Part shown: in pieces, positions 9,966 through 32,620 of the stretch
Position numbering within the stretch: the stretch's first letter is position 1
Layout of the letters: each line of letters starts with the position of its first letter
Source of the DNA: a virus
DNA: 32,620 nucleotides
Virus record (IMG/VR): IMGVR_UViG_3300037114_000034
Span: 1-32,620 of that record
Reading direction: 5' to 3' (one strand)
Notes under the pieces: model-generated
The model's input: only the letters and a program-made list of their open reading frames with translations
Databases searched by the model: none
What the model was told of the DNA's origin: nothing
Made by a program: the position numbers and the translations under genes

Positions 9966-10002
9966 AAAGCCGGGGATTGGACTTGCGCCTTTCCCCGGCT
10001 TT
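9966..10002 (+). terminator. Terminator-like hairpin
   Basis: Perfect 11-bp stem: AAAGCCGGGGA (9966-9976) pairs with TCCCCGGCTTT (9992-10002), 15-base loop. There is no long T run after it. A promoter overlaps its loop and 3' arm. Confidence 0.6.
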
Positions 10003-10010
10003 GCTATGTT
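9983..10010 (+). promoter_or_regulatory. Promoter for the structured RNA region
   Basis: TTGCGC at 9983-9988, 16-bp spacer, TATGTT at 10005-10010. No coding gene starts for about 350 bases, so its product would be a non-coding or long-leader transcript. Confidence 0.45.
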
Positions 10011-10068
10011 CTCGGTTGCGGACCCGGCGGCAAACGCTGGCGCGGCATCTTCCGGCGCTAACCCCGGA

Positions 10069-10333
10069 GTCGCGATATGGGCTGAAACCCCGAAGTCCGC
10101 TTCTTGCTACTTCGACGTGGCATGCTAAGTCAGTACGGGGCGTGCGGTAGCTGCGCACGGCACATAAGAGGATAGCTTCCTCTCTGACCATGCCACGTCG
10201 AAGTCGCGAGAGCATGATGGACAGATGCTTATGGCCGAGAGGCCGAACCGTAGGTCGTCTGCGCAGACGACTTTGGTTGAAGGCGAAAAAAGTCGGCCGC
10301 GCAGCCGATTGGGTTCGAGTCCCCGCCGCGACC
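10069..10333 (+). ncRNA. Candidate structured RNA with tRNA-like 3' part
   Basis: The stretch 9964-10361 has no convincing gene but much pairing. (1) ACTTCGACGTGGCATG (10109-10124) pairs perfectly with 10189-10204; after one mismatch the helix continues through 10102-10107 and 10206-10211. (2) Inside, GTCAG/CTGAC (10129-10133, 10184-10188) encloses hairpins CGTGCG/CGCACG (10141-10159) and AGAGGA/TCCTCT (10167-10183), a three-way junction. (3) GGCC-GAGA-GGCC at 10233-10244 is a GNRA-capped hairpin. (4) GTCGTCTGCGCAGACGAC at 10254-10271 is a perfect palindrome. (5) A 7-bp hairpin lies at 10291-10310. (6) GGTTCGAGTCC (10312-10322) is a typical T-loop sequence. GTCGCG at 10069-10074 or 10203-10208 can pair with CGCGAC at 10327-10332. 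It is not a canonical tRNA and shows no tmRNA tag. A degenerate tRNA or attachment-site remnant is an alternative. Confidence 0.5.
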
Positions 10334-10361
10334 ACCCGTTAACTGAGGTTGGAGTTTCGAC

Positions 10362-13076: not shown

Positions 13077-13475
13077 ATGAAAGACGCGGGAGGCCATGGC
13101 AGTAACGCACGCGGCGGTGACATTCCCGTCGTGCGGCTCGATAATGCCAGAAGCCGCCAGCCAAAGACCGGCTATCTCGCCTCGCCGCAGCTAAAGGCGG
13201 GTCGGGCCGCCACTGCCACGGACCCCGGCGTTCCCGGCGGGGGCCATCTATCGTCGGCCGCAGGTGAGCGTATCGCCATGCGGCAGGGAGCGGACGAGGG
13301 GCGCAATCCTCCGTCCACGATCACGGATCGAATGGCCGCTATGTCACTCGGGCAAGGCCACCCGAAATCAGACCCGGTTCCGCTCGGGTCAAGTTTCTCG
13401 GCGGCGAAGTCTGCGCTGGATCGAGGCCGCACCGTTGCGCTTCCGCGCGGCGCGGAGAGTCGGAGGAAGTCATGA
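13077..13475 (+). CDS. Tag-island protein, 132 aa
   Basis: Tag at residues 1-14 (MKDAGGHGSNARGG). The rest is Gly/Ala/Arg-rich and probably disordered. LGQGHPKSDP at 91-100 recurs near the C-terminus of the 20231 protein. GGAG at 13063-13066 supports the start. First of ten tagged proteins; its end overlaps the next tagged gene. No known domain. Confidence 0.7.
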   Translation: MKDAGGHGSNARGGDIPVVRLDNARSRQPKTGYLASPQLKAGRAATATDPGVPGGGHLSSAAGERIAMRQGADEGRNPPSTITDRMAAMSLGQGHPKSDPVPLGSSFSAAKSALDRGRTVALPRGAESRRKS

Positions 13476-13960
13476 GCAAGGACGCCAAGGGACACGGCAG
13501 CGAAAGTCGCGGCGGCGTAAGCTCACCCGCTGTGAAAGCCAACATTAAAAAGGCGGTGCAACTCGCGCATACGCTCGGGCCCGATCATCCGTCCGTGGGC
13601 GCTGCGTTGCATGATGCGATAATGGCTACACGGCCGCCCGGAGGTTTCTATAAGATCGGCGGCAGCGGCGGTCAGCCGGTCGAGTCGAATGCCCACGCGG
13701 CGGCGACGCTCGCGGGCGGTGGCGACAAGTCGGCTCCGGTGCCGGTACACGGTGCGATGAAAATGTCGTCGGGGGATTTCGCGGCTCTGAGCGCCGCCGT
13801 CACCCCGCATCTGGCATCAACTGCCGACCCGGCGCACTCAGCGATGCGTCAGCGTTGGGACGCGATGCACGCGTCAGGTTTCGGGACCGCCCCACTTTAC
13901 AAGTCGGGCTTGAATGACGACCACATCGACACGGCGCTGCGCAAAATTCAGGGGAAGTGA
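13472..13960 (+). CDS. Tag-island protein, 162 aa
   Basis: Tag MSKDAKGHGSESRGG, then a helical segment (AVKANIKKAVQLAHTLG), a GGFYKIGG turn and a helical C-terminus (HSAMRQRWDAMHASG...DHIDTALRKIQGK). The body looks globular but is not recognised. ATGA overlap with the preceding gene. Confidence 0.7.
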   Translation: MSKDAKGHGSESRGGVSSPAVKANIKKAVQLAHTLGPDHPSVGAALHDAIMATRPPGGFYKIGGSGGQPVESNAHAAATLAGGGDKSAPVPVHGAMKMSSGDFAALSAAVTPHLASTADPAHSAMRQRWDAMHASGFGTAPLYKSGLNDDHIDTALRKIQGK

Positions 13961-13961
13961 C

Positions 13962-14324
13962 ATGGCAAAAGATCAAAAAGGACACGGCAGCGAGAAGCGT
14001 GACGGCAGTTCCGGGCAGCGCGATCCGGTCGAACAGACTGATCCATCGCAACATACATTGGTCGGTGGTGGTCAGCCGGGCTTCATTCCGACAAAACCGG
14101 CGGGTCCCGGCGGCGACCAGACGCGCGGCGGTCCGCAAGACCGCAGCACGACGGATATTGCTGCGCAGCACGGCATCCCGACCGATCATCTAGCGGATGG
14201 ATCACCGGCCGCGCTCAAGGCGTTCACCGACAAGTACGGTGGCCCGCGTGACAACGCGGCCGAACAGCGCGGCTTCAACAGCGGGGCACGCGAGATAAAC
14301 CGGCTCAAGCGGCAGGGGAAGTGA
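13962..14324 (+). CDS. Tag-island protein, 120 aa
   Basis: Tag MAKDQKGHGSEKRDG, a Pro/Gly-rich linker, then AAQHGIPTDHLADGSPAALKAF. The HGIxTxHLA motif at 70-78 recurs in the next two proteins. A basic end (EINRLKRQGK) resembles the tail of the 13472 protein (RKIQGK). Confidence 0.7.
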   Translation: MAKDQKGHGSEKRDGSSGQRDPVEQTDPSQHTLVGGGQPGFIPTKPAGPGGDQTRGGPQDRSTTDIAAQHGIPTDHLADGSPAALKAFTDKYGGPRDNAAEQRGFNSGAREINRLKRQGK

Positions 14325-14326
14325 TA

Positions 14327-14713
14327 ATGGCTAAGGACGCAAAGGGTCACGGCAGTGAGAAGGGTGGCGGCGGAATGCCGCTGCAAGGTCACCCGTTTCA
14401 CACAAAGACCAATGACGAGCTTCGTTTCATAGCGAAGGACGCGAACGCGGCGGCGAACGCTACGCGCGGCATGTCGCTGTATGATCCGAACAGTCATTTT
14501 CGGCAAGACACCGAAGGCAAGTATCTCGATCAGGTGAACGACGCCTCGACCGTGCTCGGCTATCGTGCGCGCGGCGGTGCGGACCTTTCGCAAAGCCCGG
14601 CGGTCGGCGTCGCGGCGGCGCACGGGATCGACACGTCGCATCTGGCGGAACGCTTTCCGGCGGCTCACTACGACTCAAACTTCAAGCCGCGAGCAGGATG
14701 GGCAAAGGGGTAA
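14327..14713 (+). CDS. Tag-island protein, 128 aa
   Basis: Tag MAKDAKGHGSEKGGG, then a helical middle (NDELRFIAKDANAAANATRG) and AAAHGIDTSHLAERFPAAHYD, the same motif as in the 13962 protein. ATG 14327 with upstream GCAGGGGAAG; a GTG at 14321 overlaps the previous stop and could be used. Confidence 0.7.
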   Translation: MAKDAKGHGSEKGGGGMPLQGHPFHTKTNDELRFIAKDANAAANATRGMSLYDPNSHFRQDTEGKYLDQVNDASTVLGYRARGGADLSQSPAVGVAAAHGIDTSHLAERFPAAHYDSNFKPRAGWAKG

Positions 14714-14716
14714 GCA

Positions 14717-15172
14717 GTGGCGTGGACCGAAGAAGCTCGCGAGGCATCGGCCGCAACTCGCGAAGGTGACGCAAAGGGCAAAGCACAGCCGCAGCCGCAG
14801 GCACGTCCCGCTGCGCAGGCGAAGCCTATTCATTTTCACGGCGTCGGCGGCAAGAAGCATAATCAACGCGGCGGTCGCGGCGGTGGCGGCGGGGGCGGGG
14901 GCGGCGGCGGCGGCGGCGGTCGCGGCGGTGGCGGCGGTCGCGGCGGCGGCGGCGGCGGCGGTATGGGTCCCGGCCAGAAGCATGTGCAAGACCTTGCCAA
15001 GCAACACGGTATCGAAATGCAGCACTTGGAACAGCAGCAGAAACAGCACGTACAAGGAAAACAACAACGTATTCAAAACGTCCTGAATTCGTGGGATGGT
15101 GGACGCGAGACGGTGAAGCCGCAGCATATGATGGCGGGCATGAAGGGCGGCGTTGAAGTTGATAGGAGATGA
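14717..15172 (+). CDS. Poly-glycine protein, 151 aa (GTG start)
   Basis: No tag, although DAKGK occurs at 18-22. Residues 51-82 are nearly all Gly with a few Arg, in GGC-rich DNA prone to slippage. C-terminal to this is QDLAKQHGIEMQHLEQQQKQ, echoing the HGIxTxHLA motif of the two preceding proteins, then a Gln-rich helix. Reads as a flexible linker joining a basic/His head (IHFHGVGGKKH) to a coil. Confidence 0.6.
   Translation: MAWTEEAREASAATREGDAKGKAQPQPQARPAAQAKPIHFHGVGGKKHNQRGGRGGGGGGGGGGGGGGRGGGGGRGGGGGGGMGPGQKHVQDLAKQHGIEMQHLEQQQKQHVQGKQQRIQNVLNSWDGGRETVKPQHMMAGMKGGVEVDRR
14876..14964 (+). repeat. GGC-rich simple repeat
   Basis: Imperfect GGC triplets interrupted by CGC and GGT, encoding the polyglycine tract. 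Likely to vary in length between related genomes. Confidence 0.75.
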
Positions 15173-15173
15173 C

Positions 15174-15701
15174 ATGAAAGACGCAAAAGGTCACGGCAGT
15201 GAGGCACGCGGCGGCGCAGCCGGTTCGGCGCGGCCCGGCATGAAAGTCGGCGACGTGCTCAAGAACCAAGCGGCGCATCAAGCGGGCGTCAGCAGGCTCG
15301 GGCCGACTCCGCGAGCGGTCAGTCAAAAAGCACTTGACGTGGTTCGCGGTACGCCGCCCGGACAGGGCTTCTCGGTTACACCCGGCGGCAGGCAACCGAC
15401 TGGCGGCTACATGGTCAGCTTGCCGGGGCGCACGCAATCTCTTGACGCGGCCGATCTTGCCGGGCCAAACGCTAGAGGCATTCTCAATTCCTACGCGGCA
15501 ACTCACGCCGACGTTTTCGCTAACCCGGCGATGCACTACGGCGGATGGAATGATCCCGATACTCACAAGATGTCGCTCGACCCGTCTGAAAATATCATGA
15601 GTCGCTCGGCAGCGGTGGCCGCAGGCGTCGCGAGAAACCAAAAAGAGATTTGGGACGTGAAGAATAAGGTGGGCATCAAAACAGGCGGCACAGGCAAATG
15701 A
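15174..15701 (+). CDS. Tag-island protein, 175 aa
   Basis: Tag MKDAKGHGSEARGG and, after a 19-residue linker, second box AAHQAGVSRLG (33-43). A probable globular domain follows (GYMVSLPGRTQSLDAAD, ILNSYAATHADVFANP, SRSAAVAAGVARNQKEIWDV). The body's pattern suggests a folded enzyme or inhibitor domain, but I cannot name it. TAGGAG ribosome site before ATG 15174. Confidence 0.7.
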   Translation: MKDAKGHGSEARGGAAGSARPGMKVGDVLKNQAAHQAGVSRLGPTPRAVSQKALDVVRGTPPGQGFSVTPGGRQPTGGYMVSLPGRTQSLDAADLAGPNARGILNSYAATHADVFANPAMHYGGWNDPDTHKMSLDPSENIMSRSAAVAAGVARNQKEIWDVKNKVGIKTGGTGK

Positions 15702-16003
15702 AAGACGCAAAAGGACACGGTTCGGACAGCAAGGGCGCGCACTCGGATGGCGTGCAGCAACTTCCGTCACACCTGAATGAACAAGGTTTCCCCCGACCCG
15801 GCACTCCGCCGTGGATGTCCGCGAAGGCCAGCGGCCCGCGCTGGTCATATGAAGATGGGACTGGCGTCAAGCGTGAAGGTTACATGGGGCTAACCATTGA
15901 TCGGGGCGGCACTGACGTTTCGCATCCTATGTATCGTATACCGGACGGCCGTCTAGACATCGTGAGCGGCTCCCGCGCCAAAGCAATGCAGCGAGTGAAG
16001 TAA
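15698..16003 (+). CDS. Tag-island protein, 101 aa
   Basis: Tag MKDAKGHGSDSKG followed directly by box B (AHSDGVQQLP, 14-23). The remainder is short and beta-rich (YMGLTIDRGGTDVSHPMYRIPDGRLDIVSG) with a basic end. ATGA overlap with the previous gene. Confidence 0.7.
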   Translation: MKDAKGHGSDSKGAHSDGVQQLPSHLNEQGFPRPGTPPWMSAKASGPRWSYEDGTGVKREGYMGLTIDRGGTDVSHPMYRIPDGRLDIVSGSRAKAMQRVK

Positions 16004-16408
16004 ATGACCAAATTCCGAAAGACCGGGCACGATCTAATGCCACCGAAGTCCAAGAAGCCGGAGGAGAAGCCCGGCACTTTGAATGAGCATCACATCCCGA
16101 TCTACGATCACAAGGACCGAATGCGCGGTCACGTTGGCCCCAAAGCCACGGAGGTTACCGTTGCGCGCTTCACCGGCCAGCATGGCTCGAAGCTCGGCAA
16201 GAGAGATGGGAAGCCCGCGTGGATCAGTCCGCCGCCCCCGCCGCCGAAGCCGCCGCAAGTTGATCCGACCGCGCTCGCCGTCGCCGAGACGCAAGCCAAG
16301 GCGGGGCCGCAGGAGCACAAACTCTCCATCGAGCTTAATCAGGCGAAGGGCAGCGTGACCAAGACGCCGACCAAGCCCGAGACACGCGCCCGCCCGAAGC
16401 GAGGCTGA
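16004..16408 (+). CDS. Untagged island protein, 134 aa
   Basis: Starts immediately after the previous stop. IYDHKDRMRGHVGPKATEVTVARFTGQHGSKL is the ordered part (about 33-64). A Pro-rich linker (PPPPPPKPP) and a Lys/Thr-rich tail follow. No tag, no family recognised. ATG 16037 is an alternative start. Confidence 0.6.
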   Translation: MTKFRKTGHDLMPPKSKKPEEKPGTLNEHHIPIYDHKDRMRGHVGPKATEVTVARFTGQHGSKLGKRDGKPAWISPPPPPPKPPQVDPTALAVAETQAKAGPQEHKLSIELNQAKGSVTKTPTKPETRARPKRG

Positions 16409-16409
16409 C

Positions 16410-16670
16410 ATGAAGGACGCCGGTGGACACGGCAGCGCGGCGCATGGCGCGCACGCGAGCGGCGTCGATCAAGTCGGCGGCGGCCTCCCGCGTTCTGGTA
16501 AATGGAAGCGGGATAAGATGGGCGGCTATGTTCATCCGGCTTCGGGCTGGACGATAACCCCGAGTGCAGACATCAAGGGCAACTGGATTGTTTCGCGGCC
16601 GAGCGGGGCCGTATTTGACTCGCACCCATCGGTCAATTATTTGAAGCGAGTGTATGGGGGTCCCGAATGA
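16410..16670 (+). CDS. Tag-island protein, 86 aa
   Basis: Tag MKDAGGHGSAAHG and box B (AHASGVDQVG, 14-23). The body looks like a small beta domain (GGYVHPASGWTITPSADIKGNWIVSRPSG) and resembles the 15698 body in size. Ends on an ATGA overlap with the next tagged gene. Confidence 0.7.
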   Translation: MKDAGGHGSAAHGAHASGVDQVGGGLPRSGKWKRDKMGGYVHPASGWTITPSADIKGNWIVSRPSGAVFDSHPSVNYLKRVYGGPE

Positions 16671-17239
16671 AAGACGCCAAGGGACACGGCAGTGAGGCGC
16701 ACGGCGCGCACGCGCAGGGAGTCGATAAGGTCGGCCGTCCGAAATATGTGTATCACGCTACTATCGAACCGAACCTCAAGAGCATCGCCCAAAAAGGTTT
16801 GACGCCATCCCCGGAGACTCAGAATTGGGCGTTCTCTAACAACCCGACTGACAAAGTGTTTTTGTCGCCGACACCGAGCGGGGCGAATTATTACGGTGCG
16901 CTCGCCTCAAAGAATTACGGAAGCCTATGGGGTCAACCCGAACCGCCGTCCGTTTTGTTGCGCTCACCTGTGACCGGCAATGAACAGCCATTTTCGCACG
17001 GCGCAAAGCAAGAGCTTGTTGGAGACCCGATCCATCCGTCAAAGTTGGAATTCAACACCGGGGACGGTCAGTGGCGTCCGATGACTGCGGGTGCTCTACA
17101 CGAAGCGGGGGTGAAAGAATACCCGGACCCCGAGAAGTTTTATCCGACTGGCCAGCCTAGAAGCGGCCCACTTCCGCCGCGCTGGCCCGGCGATACGGGA
17201 TTGGGCTATGATGAAATGAAAAAGAGGGCCGGGCTATGA
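16667..17239 (+). CDS. Tagged ADP-ribosyltransferase-like protein, 190 aa
   Basis: Tag (1-13) plus box B AHAQGVDKVG (14-23), then a domain with ART-like features: YVYHATIEPNLKSIAQKGLTP (H30), FLSPTPSGANYYGA (Y75/Y76), and QELVGDPIHPSKLEF (E116, with the usual xGxIxPxxLE pattern). This fits an H-Y-E ADP-ribosyltransferase fold, the group that includes tRNA 2'-phosphotransferase and many phage and toxin proteins. It would transfer ADP-ribose from NAD to a host target, unknown here. T4 Alt is a precedent for a virion-delivered ART. Confidence is moderate. Confidence 0.6.
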   Translation: MKDAKGHGSEAHGAHAQGVDKVGRPKYVYHATIEPNLKSIAQKGLTPSPETQNWAFSNNPTDKVFLSPTPSGANYYGALASKNYGSLWGQPEPPSVLLRSPVTGNEQPFSHGAKQELVGDPIHPSKLEFNTGDGQWRPMTAGALHEAGVKEYPDPEKFYPTGQPRSGPLPPRWPGDTGLGYDEMKKRAGL

Positions 17240-17469
17240 AAGACGCCAAGGGACACGGCAGTGAGGCGCACGGCGGCCCGAGCAATCAGGCGGCCGTTCA
17301 AGATATGTTCCACGCGCTTCGGCCGCCTCCGCCAGCGGCGCACCAAGCGGGCGTGAACAAAATAGGGAAGCTCGCCAAACTCGGTGCAGCCCTCTATGTC
17401 GCGCAAGCGGCGGCCGGGGCGGCCGCAGGAGTTGGATGGGCGCTTTGGCACACTTTCGGCGGAGGATAA
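17236..17469 (+). CDS. Tagged membrane protein, 77 aa
   Basis: Tag MKDAKGHGSEAHGG, whose first 39 bases are identical to the 16667 gene. Box B (AAHQAGVNKIG, 34-44) follows a Pro-rich linker. Residues 45-74 are hydrophobic and Ala/Gly-rich (LGAALYVAQAAAGAAAGVGWALW), a membrane segment. Shows that the tag is combined with very different bodies. Confidence 0.7.
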   Translation: MKDAKGHGSEAHGGPSNQAAVQDMFHALRPPPPAAHQAGVNKIGKLAKLGAALYVAQAAAGAAAGVGWALWHTFGGG

Positions 17470-17473
17470 CGCC

Positions 17474-17566
17474 ATGACAGTCAAGCACGACAACGGCTAC
17501 TTCGGCAATCTTGCTCAAGTCAAACTGTTCTACGCGAACACCTTTGAAACAGACAATGGGTTCTAG
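17474..17566 (+). CDS. Hypothetical peptide, 30 aa
   Basis: Starts 5 bases after the previous stop with GGAGGATAACGCC before it, a good ribosome site. Sequence starts MTVKHDNGYFGNLAQVKLFY. Function unknown. Confidence 0.45.
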   Translation: MTVKHDNGYFGNLAQVKLFYANTFETDNGF

Positions 17567-17602
17567 GGACACCCCAGAAAACCCAACGCGAGGGAAATCA
17601 CT

Positions 17603-17707
17603 GTGAACGGGCTTATCATACTCGCCATAACTTACGGCATCATCATTGACTTTTGGTCGGGCTATTGGTATGCGGTATGGCTCGCAAAACGGGGGACACT
17701 GATATGA
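17603..17707 (+). CDS. Tiny membrane peptide, 34 aa (GTG start)
   Basis: Single helix (LIILAITYGIIIDFWSGYWYAVWLA) with a basic end. GAGGG precedes GTG 17603. The stop overlaps the next ATG. Confidence 0.45.
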   Translation: MNGLIILAITYGIIIDFWSGYWYAVWLAKRGTLI

Positions 17708-17976
17708 GCTATTCGTTTGAAAGTCATTTCCGCACCAAGGAGTCGGCTCGCCGCACGATCATGAAGGACCCGCGCCTGCCCGACGTGATCCGTGAGGTTT
17801 TGCTCGGCGCGATCAATGCGCTGTCGGCCGATACCGACGACCGCTTCATTTACGTGAAAGCGAATGGGCATCAAATGACTGATAGCGGCAACAGTTACGA
17901 GCGCACCAGCGCGGATATTGTGGTCGAGCCACGGGTCTTTTCCCCGGCTCCTACCTATGGCCGAAGCACGGCCTAA
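17704..17976 (+). CDS. Hypothetical protein, 90 aa
   Basis: A plausible alpha/beta fold (FRTKESARRTIMKDPRLPDVIREVLLGAINAL, DDRFIYVKANGHQM, YERTSADIVVEPRVF). It resembles small soluble phage proteins; family not named. Untagged. Followed by a promoter. Confidence 0.6.
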   Translation: MSYSFESHFRTKESARRTIMKDPRLPDVIREVLLGAINALSADTDDRFIYVKANGHQMTDSGNSYERTSADIVVEPRVFSPAPTYGRSTA

Positions 17977-17984
17977 GACCCCGG

Positions 17985-18013
17985 TTGCCCAAAGGGTTAA
18001 TTTAGGCTAGGTT
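17985..18013 (+). promoter_or_regulatory. Promoter with hairpin at the start site
   Basis: TTGCCC at 17985-17990, 17 bp, TAGGTT at 18008-18013. GCTAGG (18006-18011) can pair with CCTAGC (18024-18029), so a hairpin or operator overlaps the -10 and the expected start. Confidence 0.55.
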
Positions 18014-18080
18014 CTCCAATGAGCCTAGCTCACGAAGTCGCCGTTGTGCGGCTGAAAACGAATTTCTTTTGGAGGGTGCC

Positions 18081-18521
18081 ATGGCAGTCAAAGGTTCAGG
18101 ATTGGGCGCAGGCCCCGACGCGGCAATGGTCGATCAGACCGGCAGTTTCGATGCTCGCAACGGTAAGCCGAAGCACCCGCAGACATCCTTCCCGATCAAG
18201 GAAGGCATGAAGGATCAAAACGCGCCGTCAGGTGTGACGAACGCGATTGGCCCGACTAACCCCGGCAAGGGTCCCGACGCGGGCGCGACCGACGTTCTCG
18301 ATCCGCAGAGTTCGGGCGAACGCGGCAAGGTTCTTCGCCGTCAACCCGATCCGATCCAAGCCAAGTGGGGCATGAAGGGCGGCGACGGTCAAGGCATCGA
18401 CGCCAACAGCGGCGGCAAGGTTCTCGGCGAGGCCATTCTTTCGGGCTCGACCAAGCTCCCGGCCACGGTGTCATCGGCGAAGGGCTCGGCCCCGGCGTAC
18501 ACGGGCAAGGACTCGAACTAA
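18081..18521 (+). CDS. Gly/Ser/Lys-rich island protein, 146 aa
   Basis: No hydrophobic core; rich in Gly, Ala, Asp and Lys with NP/GP turns. Short elements such as NPGKGPDAGATDVLDPQ look disordered. It resembles other low-complexity head-adjacent phage proteins. GGAGGG precedes ATG 18081. Untagged. Confidence 0.6.
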   Translation: MAVKGSGLGAGPDAAMVDQTGSFDARNGKPKHPQTSFPIKEGMKDQNAPSGVTNAIGPTNPGKGPDAGATDVLDPQSSGERGKVLRRQPDPIQAKWGMKGGDGQGIDANSGGKVLGEAILSGSTKLPATVSSAKGSAPAYTGKDSN

Positions 18522-18839
18522 TTGCGTGCTTTTCACGGAGCGCGACAAGGCACACAGTCGGCGATGGCGGGCCAAGCGCCCGGTGGCGACGACCCGTCTA
18601 AGGCTCCGGCCTCTCAAGGTGCTGAAACGAAAACGGCTGTCGGCTTTGACAAGGTAAGCCCTGTCGAAGCCGCAGCCACGATGCACAACGATCTTGCCGA
18701 TGACACGAAACAGATCGCAGACGGGTCAAAGAACGTGCCTCTCCACCCCTCGCAAGTCCCCACCGAAGGGACGGACACTCAGGAGACCGAAGGCGACGGA
18801 TCAGTGAGAGACCCGACTGGACAAGGATTTGGGACATGA
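18522..18839 (+). CDS. Low-complexity island protein, 105 aa (TTG start)
   Basis: TTG directly after the previous stop, or ATG 18564. The region SPVEAAATMHNDLADDTKQIADGSKNVPLHP resembles DPVSAAKMQHYGLNDESPAEKGDVPVHP in the 19111 protein, a further shared motif. Ends on an ATGA overlap with the next tagged gene. Confidence 0.5.
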   Translation: MRAFHGARQGTQSAMAGQAPGGDDPSKAPASQGAETKTAVGFDKVSPVEAAATMHNDLADDTKQIADGSKNVPLHPSQVPTEGTDTQETEGDGSVRDPTGQGFGT

Positions 18840-19108
18840 AAGACGCAGGCGGTCACGGCAGCGACGGGCGAGGCGGCTCGCAATCCGCGTGGGGGGAACT
18901 GGCGAATGAAGCGCCGGGTGCCACTCTTGTGAATGTCGAAAATCGCTTTATGGCCGCGCGTCAACATGGAATTTTCACAAGTGTCCCCACGGTCAGCGGC
19001 GCTTACGCCCGAGACGAAACCGGGGTGAACCTCTACAATCTGCTGGCGGGGCGCGGGCATCCGGGTGTTGAGGACCCGAAAGTGCTACGTGACATGGCGG
19101 CGGTGTAA
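18836..19108 (+). CDS. Tag-island protein, 90 aa
   Basis: Last tagged gene. Tag MKDAGGHGSDGRGG, then a helical and beta body (SAWGELANEAPGATLVNVENRFMAARQHGIFTSV). Body unrecognised; HGIFTSV loosely echoes the HGIxT motif of the 13962-14717 proteins. Confidence 0.7.
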   Translation: MKDAGGHGSDGRGGSQSAWGELANEAPGATLVNVENRFMAARQHGIFTSVPTVSGAYARDETGVNLYNLLAGRGHPGVEDPKVLRDMAAV

Positions 19109-30201: not shown

Positions 30202-32620
30202 ATGACACTTTCAGTACGATCATCGGTGGCCCAATCACCGTGGTCCGGGGCGTTTAACGGCACGCAGGCCGGGGCTCTCTCCCTCACCATCGCACCCGAC
30301 GATATTGTTGTCGTCGTCGCGGGCTTCTTCACGAGCCTAGCTGCGTCGGCTGTCGGCGTCTCCGGGATCACCGGCGGCGGCGTTACCGGATCGTGGACGC
30401 TACGCAAGCGCACGGTGGTGACGTGTAACGACGGCCTTCCGATGGTTCAAGAAGTGTGGTGGGGTCTCGCGACCACGGCAGCCACATCGGTCACGGTCGC
30501 TGTTAATGACGCGACCACGACCTACGCCTCCATGGTTATATTCAGCATCGAAGGCGCGAGCCCGACAGCGCCGTTCGATGTCAACGCTTCACTGCCTGCC
30601 GTCGCGTCTGCCGCAGAGAGTGGCTTGGTCACAACTCGAAATGTAACCGGCGTCTCGACGACTGCCTCCAACACATTGTTGATCGCGGCACTCGTAGGCA
30701 ATTCTGAGGCGGGGACTTCCACACCGTATAGCTATTCGACCCCCGACGCCAGTTTCACCCTTCTCCCCAACGCTCCCGCCATAGATTATTTAGGTATAGG
30801 TTCGGAGTATCAGAACTTATCGTCTCCGATTATCAATCAAACATTCAATCTTTTCAGCGGCATCGACTCGACCGATTGGATTGGCTACGTTGATGCGATC
30901 CAAGCAACGCCCGCACCTGTTCTCGATACTACAAACCCTCCGCAAACTGTTGCCGGTATTTCGGGCAGTGCTTCATTCACGGCGTCAGTTTCAACGGCCG
31001 TCGCCAATGAACTCATTGTGCTCGTAGTCTCATGCTATAATGATGATAATAGCGGAAGCTATGCAACAATGCCGTCTGTCTCGTCCATTTCAGGTGGGGG
31101 TCTGACATGGCAAAAGCGGGCCGCGTCTGGCTCCGTAGACTTGGGCCTCAACGGTACGAAGTACGTTTCTGAGACTTTGGAAATTTGGTATGCGATTGCC
31201 CCGACAACCATAAGCTCACAGACGATCACTATTACATTAAGCGCGGCTCTCTCGTCCAACAGTGCTAAAGCTTTAGTCTTTGGAGTGGAGGGGGCCTACG
31301 CGGCAGCGCCGTGGGACGCCAACCCTTCGCTACCGGCGATAGGAACGACGCAGACGGCAGGCGTGATCCCATCGGTGAGTGGCGTCTCGACGACCAACTC
31401 GAATACGATGTTGGTGGCCTTCAATAGCGGGGACCAAAGTGCGGTGGGATACGGTGCGGGGTTCTCCGAAGTTGGAGGGTCTGGTCCCGATGGCGAGTAT
31501 AAAGTGGTGGCGTCACCACAATCTTCAATAACTGTCGCCTTCGGGGCCGCGAACGCGAACTTCGGGTTCTTAATGTACGCCGACGCCATAGCCCCCAATG
31601 TACCTCCCGGGAGCTACATGCGCGATTACGACGTAGACGTAAACGCATTTTTCGATCCCAACTCTAAGTTTCTCATAGATTGGTTCGATGAGGATTACCC
31701 TGACCCGGGGGCGACGAACCTCGTACTCGACTTCGCAGTCGGGTCCTACGCGATCACTGGCACCGCCGCCGCGCTTCACTACAACCGCGTGCTTGACTGC
31801 GCGCCCGGGTCCTTCTCGATAAACCCCATAACTTACTCGGCGAACGTCATTTACCTATCCGGGTTCTTTGGCGACGGCCCCAACGAGGGAATTGAAATAG
31901 AACTCTCGACTATCTCGGGCACGATCAACTATAGCGAAGATTTGTTGGTGAGCGGCGTAACTGCGGAGCCGGAAGCGAACGGCCTGTGGCCTATTACTAA
32001 TGCCACCGGCGGGTTTGTGAATTTGTGGGGAACTAACCCACCCACCTTTACCGGCGCTACCAGCGCGGGAACAGCAACGCAACAGGAAGGCTACGTCTCA
32101 CTTCTTGTGCAGCATGTGCTCGACTTCGCAGTCGGGTCCTACTCGATGAATGGTGACGCGGCGTTGCTCACCATCAGTGCAGGGAACCTTGTACTCGACA
32201 TGGCGGTCGGCACCTACGCGATCACGGGTGACGCCGCCGCGCTTCTTTATCATCACGTCCTTGACTTCGCGGTCGGCACTTACGCGATCACCGGATCGCC
32301 GTTGGCCTTCGCCGATATGCTCGGGTTCACACCGGGCGCGTACACGATCACGGGTGACGCTGCGGCACTTCTCCGCAAGCGTGTGTTGGATTTCGCGGTC
32401 GGCACCTACGCGATCACCGGCAGCGCGGCATTGCTCGAAGGCGTTCTCGACATGGCGGTCGGCACCTACGCGATCACGGGTGACGCCGCCGCCCTTCTTT
32501 ATCATCACGTCCTTGACTTCGCGGTCGGCACTTACGCGATCACCGGATCGCCGTTGGCCTTCGCCGATATGCTCGGGTTCACACCGGGCGCGTACACGAT
32601 CACGGGTGACGCTGCGGCAC
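30202..32620 (+). CDS. Tail-fibre-like repeat protein, partial (806+ aa)
   Basis: Open through the window end, with no stop found. Residues 1-500 contain two related domains: EIWYAIAPTTISSQTITITLSA and VFGVEGAYAAAPWDANPSLPA in the second match VWWGLATTAATSVTVAV and IEGASPTAPFDVNASLPA in the first. From residue 509 come about 20-residue repeats of the LDFAVGTYAITGDAAAL type. Such repeats and domains occur in tail fibres and similar adhesins of phages of GC-rich hosts. A role in receptor contact is inferred. ATG 30202 with upstream GGAGGG. Confidence 0.8.
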   Translation, partial: MTLSVRSSVAQSPWSGAFNGTQAGALSLTIAPDDIVVVVAGFFTSLAASAVGVSGITGGGVTGSWTLRKRTVVTCNDGLPMVQEVWWGLATTAATSVTVAVNDATTTYASMVIFSIEGASPTAPFDVNASLPAVASAAESGLVTTRNVTGVSTTASNTLLIAALVGNSEAGTSTPYSYSTPDASFTLLPNAPAIDYLGIGSEYQNLSSPIINQTFNLFSGIDSTDWIGYVDAIQATPAPVLDTTNPPQTVAGISGSASFTASVSTAVANELIVLVVSCYNDDNSGSYATMPSVSSISGGGLTWQKRAASGSVDLGLNGTKYVSETLEIWYAIAPTTISSQTITITLSAALSSNSAKALVFGVEGAYAAAPWDANPSLPAIGTTQTAGVIPSVSGVSTTNSNTMLVAFNSGDQSAVGYGAGFSEVGGSGPDGEYKVVASPQSSITVAFGAANANFGFLMYADAIAPNVPPGSYMRDYDVDVNAFFDPNSKFLIDWFDEDYPDPGATNLVLDFAVGSYAITGTAAALHYNRVLDCAPGSFSINPITYSANVIYLSGFFGDGPNEGIEIELSTISGTINYSEDLLVSGVTAEPEANGLWPITNATGGFVNLWGTNPPTFTGATSAGTATQQEGYVSLLVQHVLDFAVGSYSMNGDAALLTISAGNLVLDMAVGTYAITGDAAALLYHHVLDFAVGTYAITGSPLAFADMLGFTPGAYTITGDAAALLRKRVLDFAVGTYAITGSAALLEGVLDMAVGTYAITGDAAALLYHHVLDFAVGTYAITGSPLAFADMLGFTPGAYTITGDAAA
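32194..32620 (+). repeat. Tandem 252-bp higher-order coding repeat
   Basis: Copy 1 (32194-32445) and copy 2 (from 32446, truncated at the window end) are almost identical, e.g. one change in the GCCGCCGC region near 32241/32493. Each 84-codon unit holds four shorter repeats of 20-22 residues (ending LLYHH, FADM, LLRKR and LLEG). Confidence 0.9.

Follow-up and report, generated by a model that had tools for sequence, protein, structure and literature searches.

A candidate phage-encoded RNA with a conserved three-way junction and two complementary loops

What does a phage make from about 350 bases that fold strongly and hold no convincing gene? The stretch in question, 9966–10345, lies in a 32.6-kb viral contig (IMG/VR record IMGVR_UViG_3300037114_000034, 32,620 nt, analysed whole and referred to as the window; 601 tested bases are identical in IMGVR_UViG_3300048817_000028), which carries TerS (phrog_4044), TerL (phrog_979) and portal genes of ordinary type. 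A sequence-only reading had proposed a new structured RNA here, with a tRNA-like 3′ part. Our analysis bears out the structured RNA, with compensatory changes in every core helix, two distant homologs found by covariance model and no Rfam match, and gives no support to the tRNA-like part. In our main reading, to which we give a probability of roughly 0.55, the phage encodes here a non-coding RNA that stands alone, acts in trans and belongs to a family (family A) undescribed within the reach of these searches.

The individual elements named by the earlier reading are present in the DNA. In particular, the perfect 16-bp stem (P2 in Table 1) is part of an inverted repeat, 10102–10129/10184–10211, that is 86% complementary over 28 nt and is the window's best long spaced inverted repeat; the GNRA hairpin (GGCCGAGAGGCC, GAGA tetraloop) lies at 10233–10244, the 18-nt palindrome at 10254–10271, a further hairpin at 10293–10308 and the T-loop-like sequence GGGTTCGAGTCCC at 10311–10323; and no ORF in the region has family support. 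The segment 10069–10332 folds at −129.9 kcal/mol versus −96.4 ± 4.8 kcal/mol for shuffled sequences (z = −7.05; 0 of 200 as good), and its opposite strand gives a z of −5.58. The proposed closure of the whole molecule by GTCGCG/CGCGAC (10069–10074/10327–10332) has to be corrected: both sequences are there and pair strongly in the isolated fragment, but a competing pairing, GGTTGCGG/CCGCGACC, replaces them in folds that take in the transcript's 5′ end. Elsewhere in the window, about ten consecutive ORFs at 13077–19108 have the N-terminal motif MKDAxGHGSxxxG or a close variant (for example at 13472, 14321, 15698, 16410, 16667, 17236 and 18836) and form a tandem family of unknown proteins with an N-terminal tag in common; a minus-strand ORF at 32098–32508 contains GADRHVE/DRVGAD-like repeats, which point to repetitive sequence close to the end of the contig.

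A related region (L087) occupies the same position in another phage, whose neighbouring protein is 81% identical. Alignment of the two regions reveals an apical segment of ~55 nt that is nearly identical, and a P2 stem in which 16 of 16 pairs are kept: three differ by double compensatory changes, one by a wobble, and none is broken. A covariance model of the window and L087 (R1), searched over 31 terminase-related phage contigs, identified two distant homologs in larger phages: L116 in G016 (E 9.4e-10) and L117 in G026 (E 3.8e-7). The terminases of G016 and G026 are ~51–52% identical to that of the window, and a model that includes both homologs (R2) scores them at 4e-22 and 3e-21.

Comparison of the four loci shows a conserved, predicted head of ~60 nt on the plus strand, carried on a stem of variable sequence and bearing two mutually complementary loops (Table 1). 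The head is a three-way junction: P3 has 5 bp; P4 has a G–C pair, a small internal loop, 6 bp and a 7-nt loop, GUNGYUG; P5 has 6 bp and the loop UARC; and the junction strands UACG and ACAUA are conserved in all four phages. In this sample of four members, comprising two pairs of relatives, 9 of the 22 core pairs have changes on both sides, and the covariation score is 0.492, versus 0.230 ± 0.050 for shuffled controls (0 of 500); slid structures reach no more than 0.098. With P3 of L087 aligned by hand (a 3-nt shortening beside P3 had been misplaced by MAFFT), all 86 base-pair cells are standard: 78 Watson-Crick, 8 G-U and 0 A-C, an imbalance of wobbles that places the RNA on the plus strand. 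The stems are thus conserved by covariation, the opposite of what the earlier reading said would refute the RNA, with compensatory changes in P2 as well as in the core helices. The complementary loop segments are GCUG/UAGC in the window and L087 and GUUG/UAAC in L116 and L117, so that one pair covaries from C-G to U-A; with four members in two pairs of relatives, the predicted kissing pair rests on this one covarying position. Outside the core, single-sequence folds of L116 and L117 are weakly better than shuffles (z about −1.7). Given this fold, the matching paired changes in three other phages and the lack of a match to any known RNA family, the phage probably makes an RNA of a new kind.

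Table 1. Features of the candidate RNA locus in the window
Feature	Position	Strand	Evidence and remarks
Terminator-like hairpin of upstream gene	9966–10002	+	11-bp stem 9966–9976/9992–10002; loop holds −35 box; sequence; layout common to L087 and L108
Candidate sigma70-type promoter	9983–10010	+	TTGCGC - 16 nt - (TGC)TATGTT; expected transcript start ~10016; consensus match only
5′ variable region of RNA	10014–10098	+	GGTTGCGG (10014–10021) may close molecule with CCGCGACC; fold only; not conserved in homologs
P1 5′ strand, GCTTCTTGC	10099–10107	+	pairs with GCGAGAGC 10206–10213; fold; L087 pairs GCTCTC with same GAGAGC
P2 5′ strand	10109–10124	+	16 bp with 10189–10204; L087 comparison
Conserved core P3/P4/P5	10129–10188	+	86/86 cells paired over 4 phages, L087 P3 hand-aligned
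P3 5′ strand, GUCAG	10129–10133	+	pairs with CUGAC 10184–10188; 4/5 pairs change on both sides
P4 hairpin	10138–10161	+	G10138-C10161 plus 10141–10146/10154–10159; 7-nt loop GUAGCUG; 3 pairs with double compensatory changes
P4 loop, GCUG	10150–10153	+	complementary to P5 loop UAGC (kissing); 4/4 pairs kept in 4/4 phages
P5 hairpin, AGAGGA-UAGCU-UCCUCU	10167–10183	+	double compensatory change at columns 45–53; G-U wobbles elsewhere
P5 loop, UAGC	10173–10176	+	kissing partner of 10150–10153
P3 3′ strand, CUGAC	10184–10188	+	covariation analysis
P2 3′ strand	10189–10204	+	L087 comparison
P1 3′ strand, GCGAGAGC	10206–10213	+	fold, L087 comparison
3′ variable region	10214–10335	+	GNRA hairpin, palindrome, hairpin, GGGTTCGAGTCCC; sequence and fold; not conserved in L087, L116, L117

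An Rfam scan of the window and the region gave 0 matches at the gathering threshold and, at E<10, chance microRNA and sRNA matches only. Blastn found nothing significant for the window, L116 and L117 RNAs among 50,697 phages, or for the window RNA among 72,556 plasmids. Neither pattern scans nor R2 searches of additional phage contigs and of 385 alphaproteobacterial genomes yielded a further credible member, the best R2 match in those genomes (E 0.0024) being at chance level for that many genomes; a search for a host prophage via TerL in 190 alphaproteobacteria, run without a positive control, found nothing. Several candidates were rejected: the sequences that relaxed core patterns picked up in the viral and in the bacterial collections were judged chance matches, either on reading them or by models; L149, an R2 match from the alphaproteobacterial search, reads as terminase-coding sequence; a weak R2 match in G432 (E 2e-4) looks coding and has no core; and weak matches in G022 and G023 are one coding-like sequence common to both. 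Family A is either rare in the searched collections or diverged beyond the reach of the searches. Judged from the loci compared, it is accessory in its phage group, being absent from the close relatives G005 and G007 (terminase 85–87% identical to that of G016), where the homologous flanking genes are separated by a terminator alone. As to genomic surroundings, tRNA islands of 5–10 tRNAs occur in the window's larger relatives (L203 2969–4001, L204 8907–9418, L207 7374–8220 and L210 5388–5906), and islands lie about 6–7 kb upstream of family A in G026 and of the corresponding empty site in G005.

In a model consistent with these features, the RNA would be transcribed from its own promoter, sited within the terminator that ends the operon before it; P5 would stack on P3, P4 would fold alongside and the loops would kiss, generating a rigid Y-shaped head that could bind a specific partner, with the variable 5′ and 3′ parts as putative scaffolding. 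The RNA would act in trans as a regulator, decoy or scaffold, most probably through the binding of a protein, of host or phage, to its kissing-loop junction. Since the junctions and loops are conserved in sequence while the stems drift, protein binding is likelier than antisense pairing, and our best guess at function, reached purely by inference, is a protein-binding or decoy RNA.

The chief rival explanation, which we regard as unlikely, is that the complementary loops pair between molecules and that the RNA self-assembles and works as an oligomer, either as part of a packaging motor or as an RNA particle, after the manner of phi29 pRNA rings or the cages of ROOL and GOLLD. A three-way junction with two mutually complementary 4-nt loops is present in four of four phages, as would be expected of a phi29 pRNA-like molecule, but the equal 6-bp stems on one junction also permit intramolecular pairing, and pairing within and between molecules look alike in the sequence. 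An oligomer would also be consistent with the phage origin of the RNA, with the conserved 3′ part and variable 5′ part of L116 and L117, and with the tRNA islands of the relatives (in G026, 10 tRNAs ~6.7 kb upstream of the RNA), as for ROOL and GOLLD (PMC12286853). Against it, the terminase of these phages is ordinary (phrog_979, phrog_4044) and not of the phi29 type, Rfam gives no match to pRNA, ROOL or GOLLD, and close relatives lack the RNA, indicating that it is not an essential motor part.

The ends of the transcription unit bear on a second rival, slightly less probable than the oligomer: a cis-acting, riboswitch-like leader or attenuator of the small genes downstream. The earlier reading had placed a promoter in a terminator loop; a candidate is there, but its −35 box differs from the obvious one, being TTGCGC (9983–9988) in the hairpin loop, followed after a 16-nt spacer by the extended −10 element TGCTATGTT (10005–10010), and a stricter promoter scan of the window reported none. 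L087 and L108, the corresponding locus of the relative G002, have the same hairpin-plus-promoter layout, with TTGACC-16-TGTTATGTA or TGCTATGTA (TTGACC-16-TATGTA) and an extended −10 element, and the distant homologs have promoter-like sites too (TTGACA-17-TAGGTT in L117, TTGACT-18-TAAGAA in L116); all of these are consensus matches only. At the other end, no clear terminator was found in 10214–10335, where the 3′ end of the window RNA is not defined, and in the window and L087 the ORF that follows begins a short way downstream and in the same direction, an arrangement that would suit a leader, as would the likeness of the P3/P4/P5 topology with kissing loops to the purine riboswitch fold. In L116 and L117, by contrast, a strong hairpin with a T-rich tail lies directly 3′ of the core and the next genes are convergent, so that the RNA there looks like a terminated stand-alone transcript. 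In addition, the downstream genes vary among members, and the core and terminator do not overlap, all of which speaks against a leader.

It is improbable, and was already disfavoured, that the locus is the remnant of a tRNA or tmRNA-like gene or an attachment site that copies the 3′ end of a host tRNA. Suggestive of it are GGGTTCGAGTCCC and GTCGCG/CGCGAC in the window and, at this locus in G002 (L108 10089–10250), a genuine tRNA-like RNA with perfect acceptor and T-arm, which ARAGORN calls only with an intron allowed. The L108 RNA is a different one, however: a covariance model of its family (R3) does not match the window. In the window fold, the T-arm has a probability of 0.000 and forcing it costs ~7 kcal/mol; L087, L116 and L117 have no such arm, and the tmRNA-style closure is not common to the homologs. 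ARAGORN finds no tRNA or tmRNA in the window at default settings, ARAGORN -m is negative for the window RNA, and Rfam gives no tmRNA match even at E<10. A search of 289 alphaproteobacterial genomes for the 26-nt T-arm/acceptor stretch, the supposed attachment site, allowing up to 2 mismatches, found nothing. We reject both the T-arm and the tmRNA-like closure for the window; the attachment-site proposal gained no support. Least probable of all is a DNA-level palindrome (a protein-binding site, origin or cruciform): long inverted repeats kept as pairs would also suit DNA hairpins, but the 8 G-U versus 0 A-C cells on one strand only, the conservation of unpaired loops and junctions, and a promoter-like site and terminator in matching orientation argue against it.

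The tRNA-like RNA of G002 represents a second family, family B. In L108 (IMGVR_UViG_3300021420_000114) it occupies 10062–10312 and comprises GAGAG, an 8-bp P1 around the tRNA-like domain, a covarying hairpin and GAGCAAnUAACACGAGGCG...CGCCUACUC. Blastn with this segment matched 65 isolated-phage records, some over short pieces only and possibly by chance. P1 is perfect in 13 of 13 loci (L108 and twelve fetched loci, L222–L233), its sequence differing while pairing is kept; in L226, GAG...CUC becomes GUG...CAC, suggesting a further closing helix. The twelve fetched loci are from cultured phages, including Ounavirinae, jumbo phages, Chaseviridae, Demerecviridae and Vequintavirinae, and in an Rfam scan of them only tRNA reaches the cut-off. 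Family B records often lie in tRNA islands and are mostly unannotated or labelled 'tRNA-OTHER/Undet'. The family also occurs in G023 (E 1.5e-10; L235, 37389–37500), with a TTGACA-17-TATAAG promoter-like site above it and a perfect P1 with no T-arm visible inside, suggesting that the enclosed domain is replaceable. Family B is widespread in the tRNA islands of cultured enterobacterial phages, where it is mostly annotated as nothing or as an odd tRNA, and it is directly testable. Beyond the first RNA, on its downstream side, L087 and L108 have in common another stretch of conserved noncoding sequence (L087 480–630, L108 10450–10620; 118 of 172 aligned columns identical, the last ~20 columns overhanging), whose consensus fold has three double and one single pair-preserving changes and 0 breaks; it is absent or unrecognisable in the window.

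Families A and B are different RNAs, since R3 misses the window, L112, L116 and L117 and R2 misses every family B locus. Between the window and G002, family A is replaced by family B at the same locus; G005 and G007 have weak family B matches only. No contig examined has both families at significant score; this is suggestive, though no proof, of mutual replacement. We tentatively propose, as a possibility well short of even odds, that one locus accommodates interchangeable, unrelated RNAs, A in the window, G003, G016 and G026 and B in G002 and G023, perhaps with the same job; in that case A might be an RNA machine of a new class, one that forms oligomers or captures proteins, in analogy to pRNA, ROOL and GOLLD. 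L108 has, where the core would lie, a three-way junction (GGGAGUACGGGG...CUCCC) that scores nothing with R2 but may be a diverged family A homolog.

Phages have yielded few known families of structured RNA, several of which turned out to be unusual machines, such as packaging RNA and RNA cages. Family A is compact, supported by covariation and patchy among relatives; it has a promoter-like site of its own and, in two phages, a terminator as well, and it is a tractable target for cloning, probing and pull-down. The purine riboswitch aptamer has a stem and two parallel ~6-bp hairpins with kissing loops on a three-way junction; its likeness to family A is in architecture only, the sequence being unrelated, and in L116 and L117 family A is a terminated gene that stands alone, not a leader. 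The phi29 pRNA, whose complementary loops are 4 nt long, is likewise phage-encoded, with a three-way junction and two hairpin loops complementary over 4 nt, and in both RNAs structure is kept while sequence drifts. However, family A has no match to Phage_pRNA (Rfam, E<10), its phages have ordinary TerL (phrog_979) and TerS (phrog_4044) and no phi29-type packaging ATPase, and its RNA is accessory, about 330–520 nt long and equipped with extra domains. Sequence drift is marked among pRNAs, which share only about 12% sequence (PMC5340915). ROOL and GOLLD are ornate phage RNAs of unknown function, found near tRNA islands and having kissing loops, and GOLLD has a conserved 3′ region and a variable 5′ region (PMC12286853). 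Near family A, G026 has a tRNA island ~6.7 kb upstream and G016 one tRNA ~5.5 kb upstream, with none in the window or L112, both fragments; family A is much smaller than ROOL and GOLLD and differs from them in sequence and fold, with no Rfam match. Family B differs from family A in its conserved core, with the 8-bp P1 and GAGCAAnUAACACGAGGCG...CGCCUACUC, but is likewise a stand-alone phage RNA and, in G002, has the same locus and promoter context as family A in the window.
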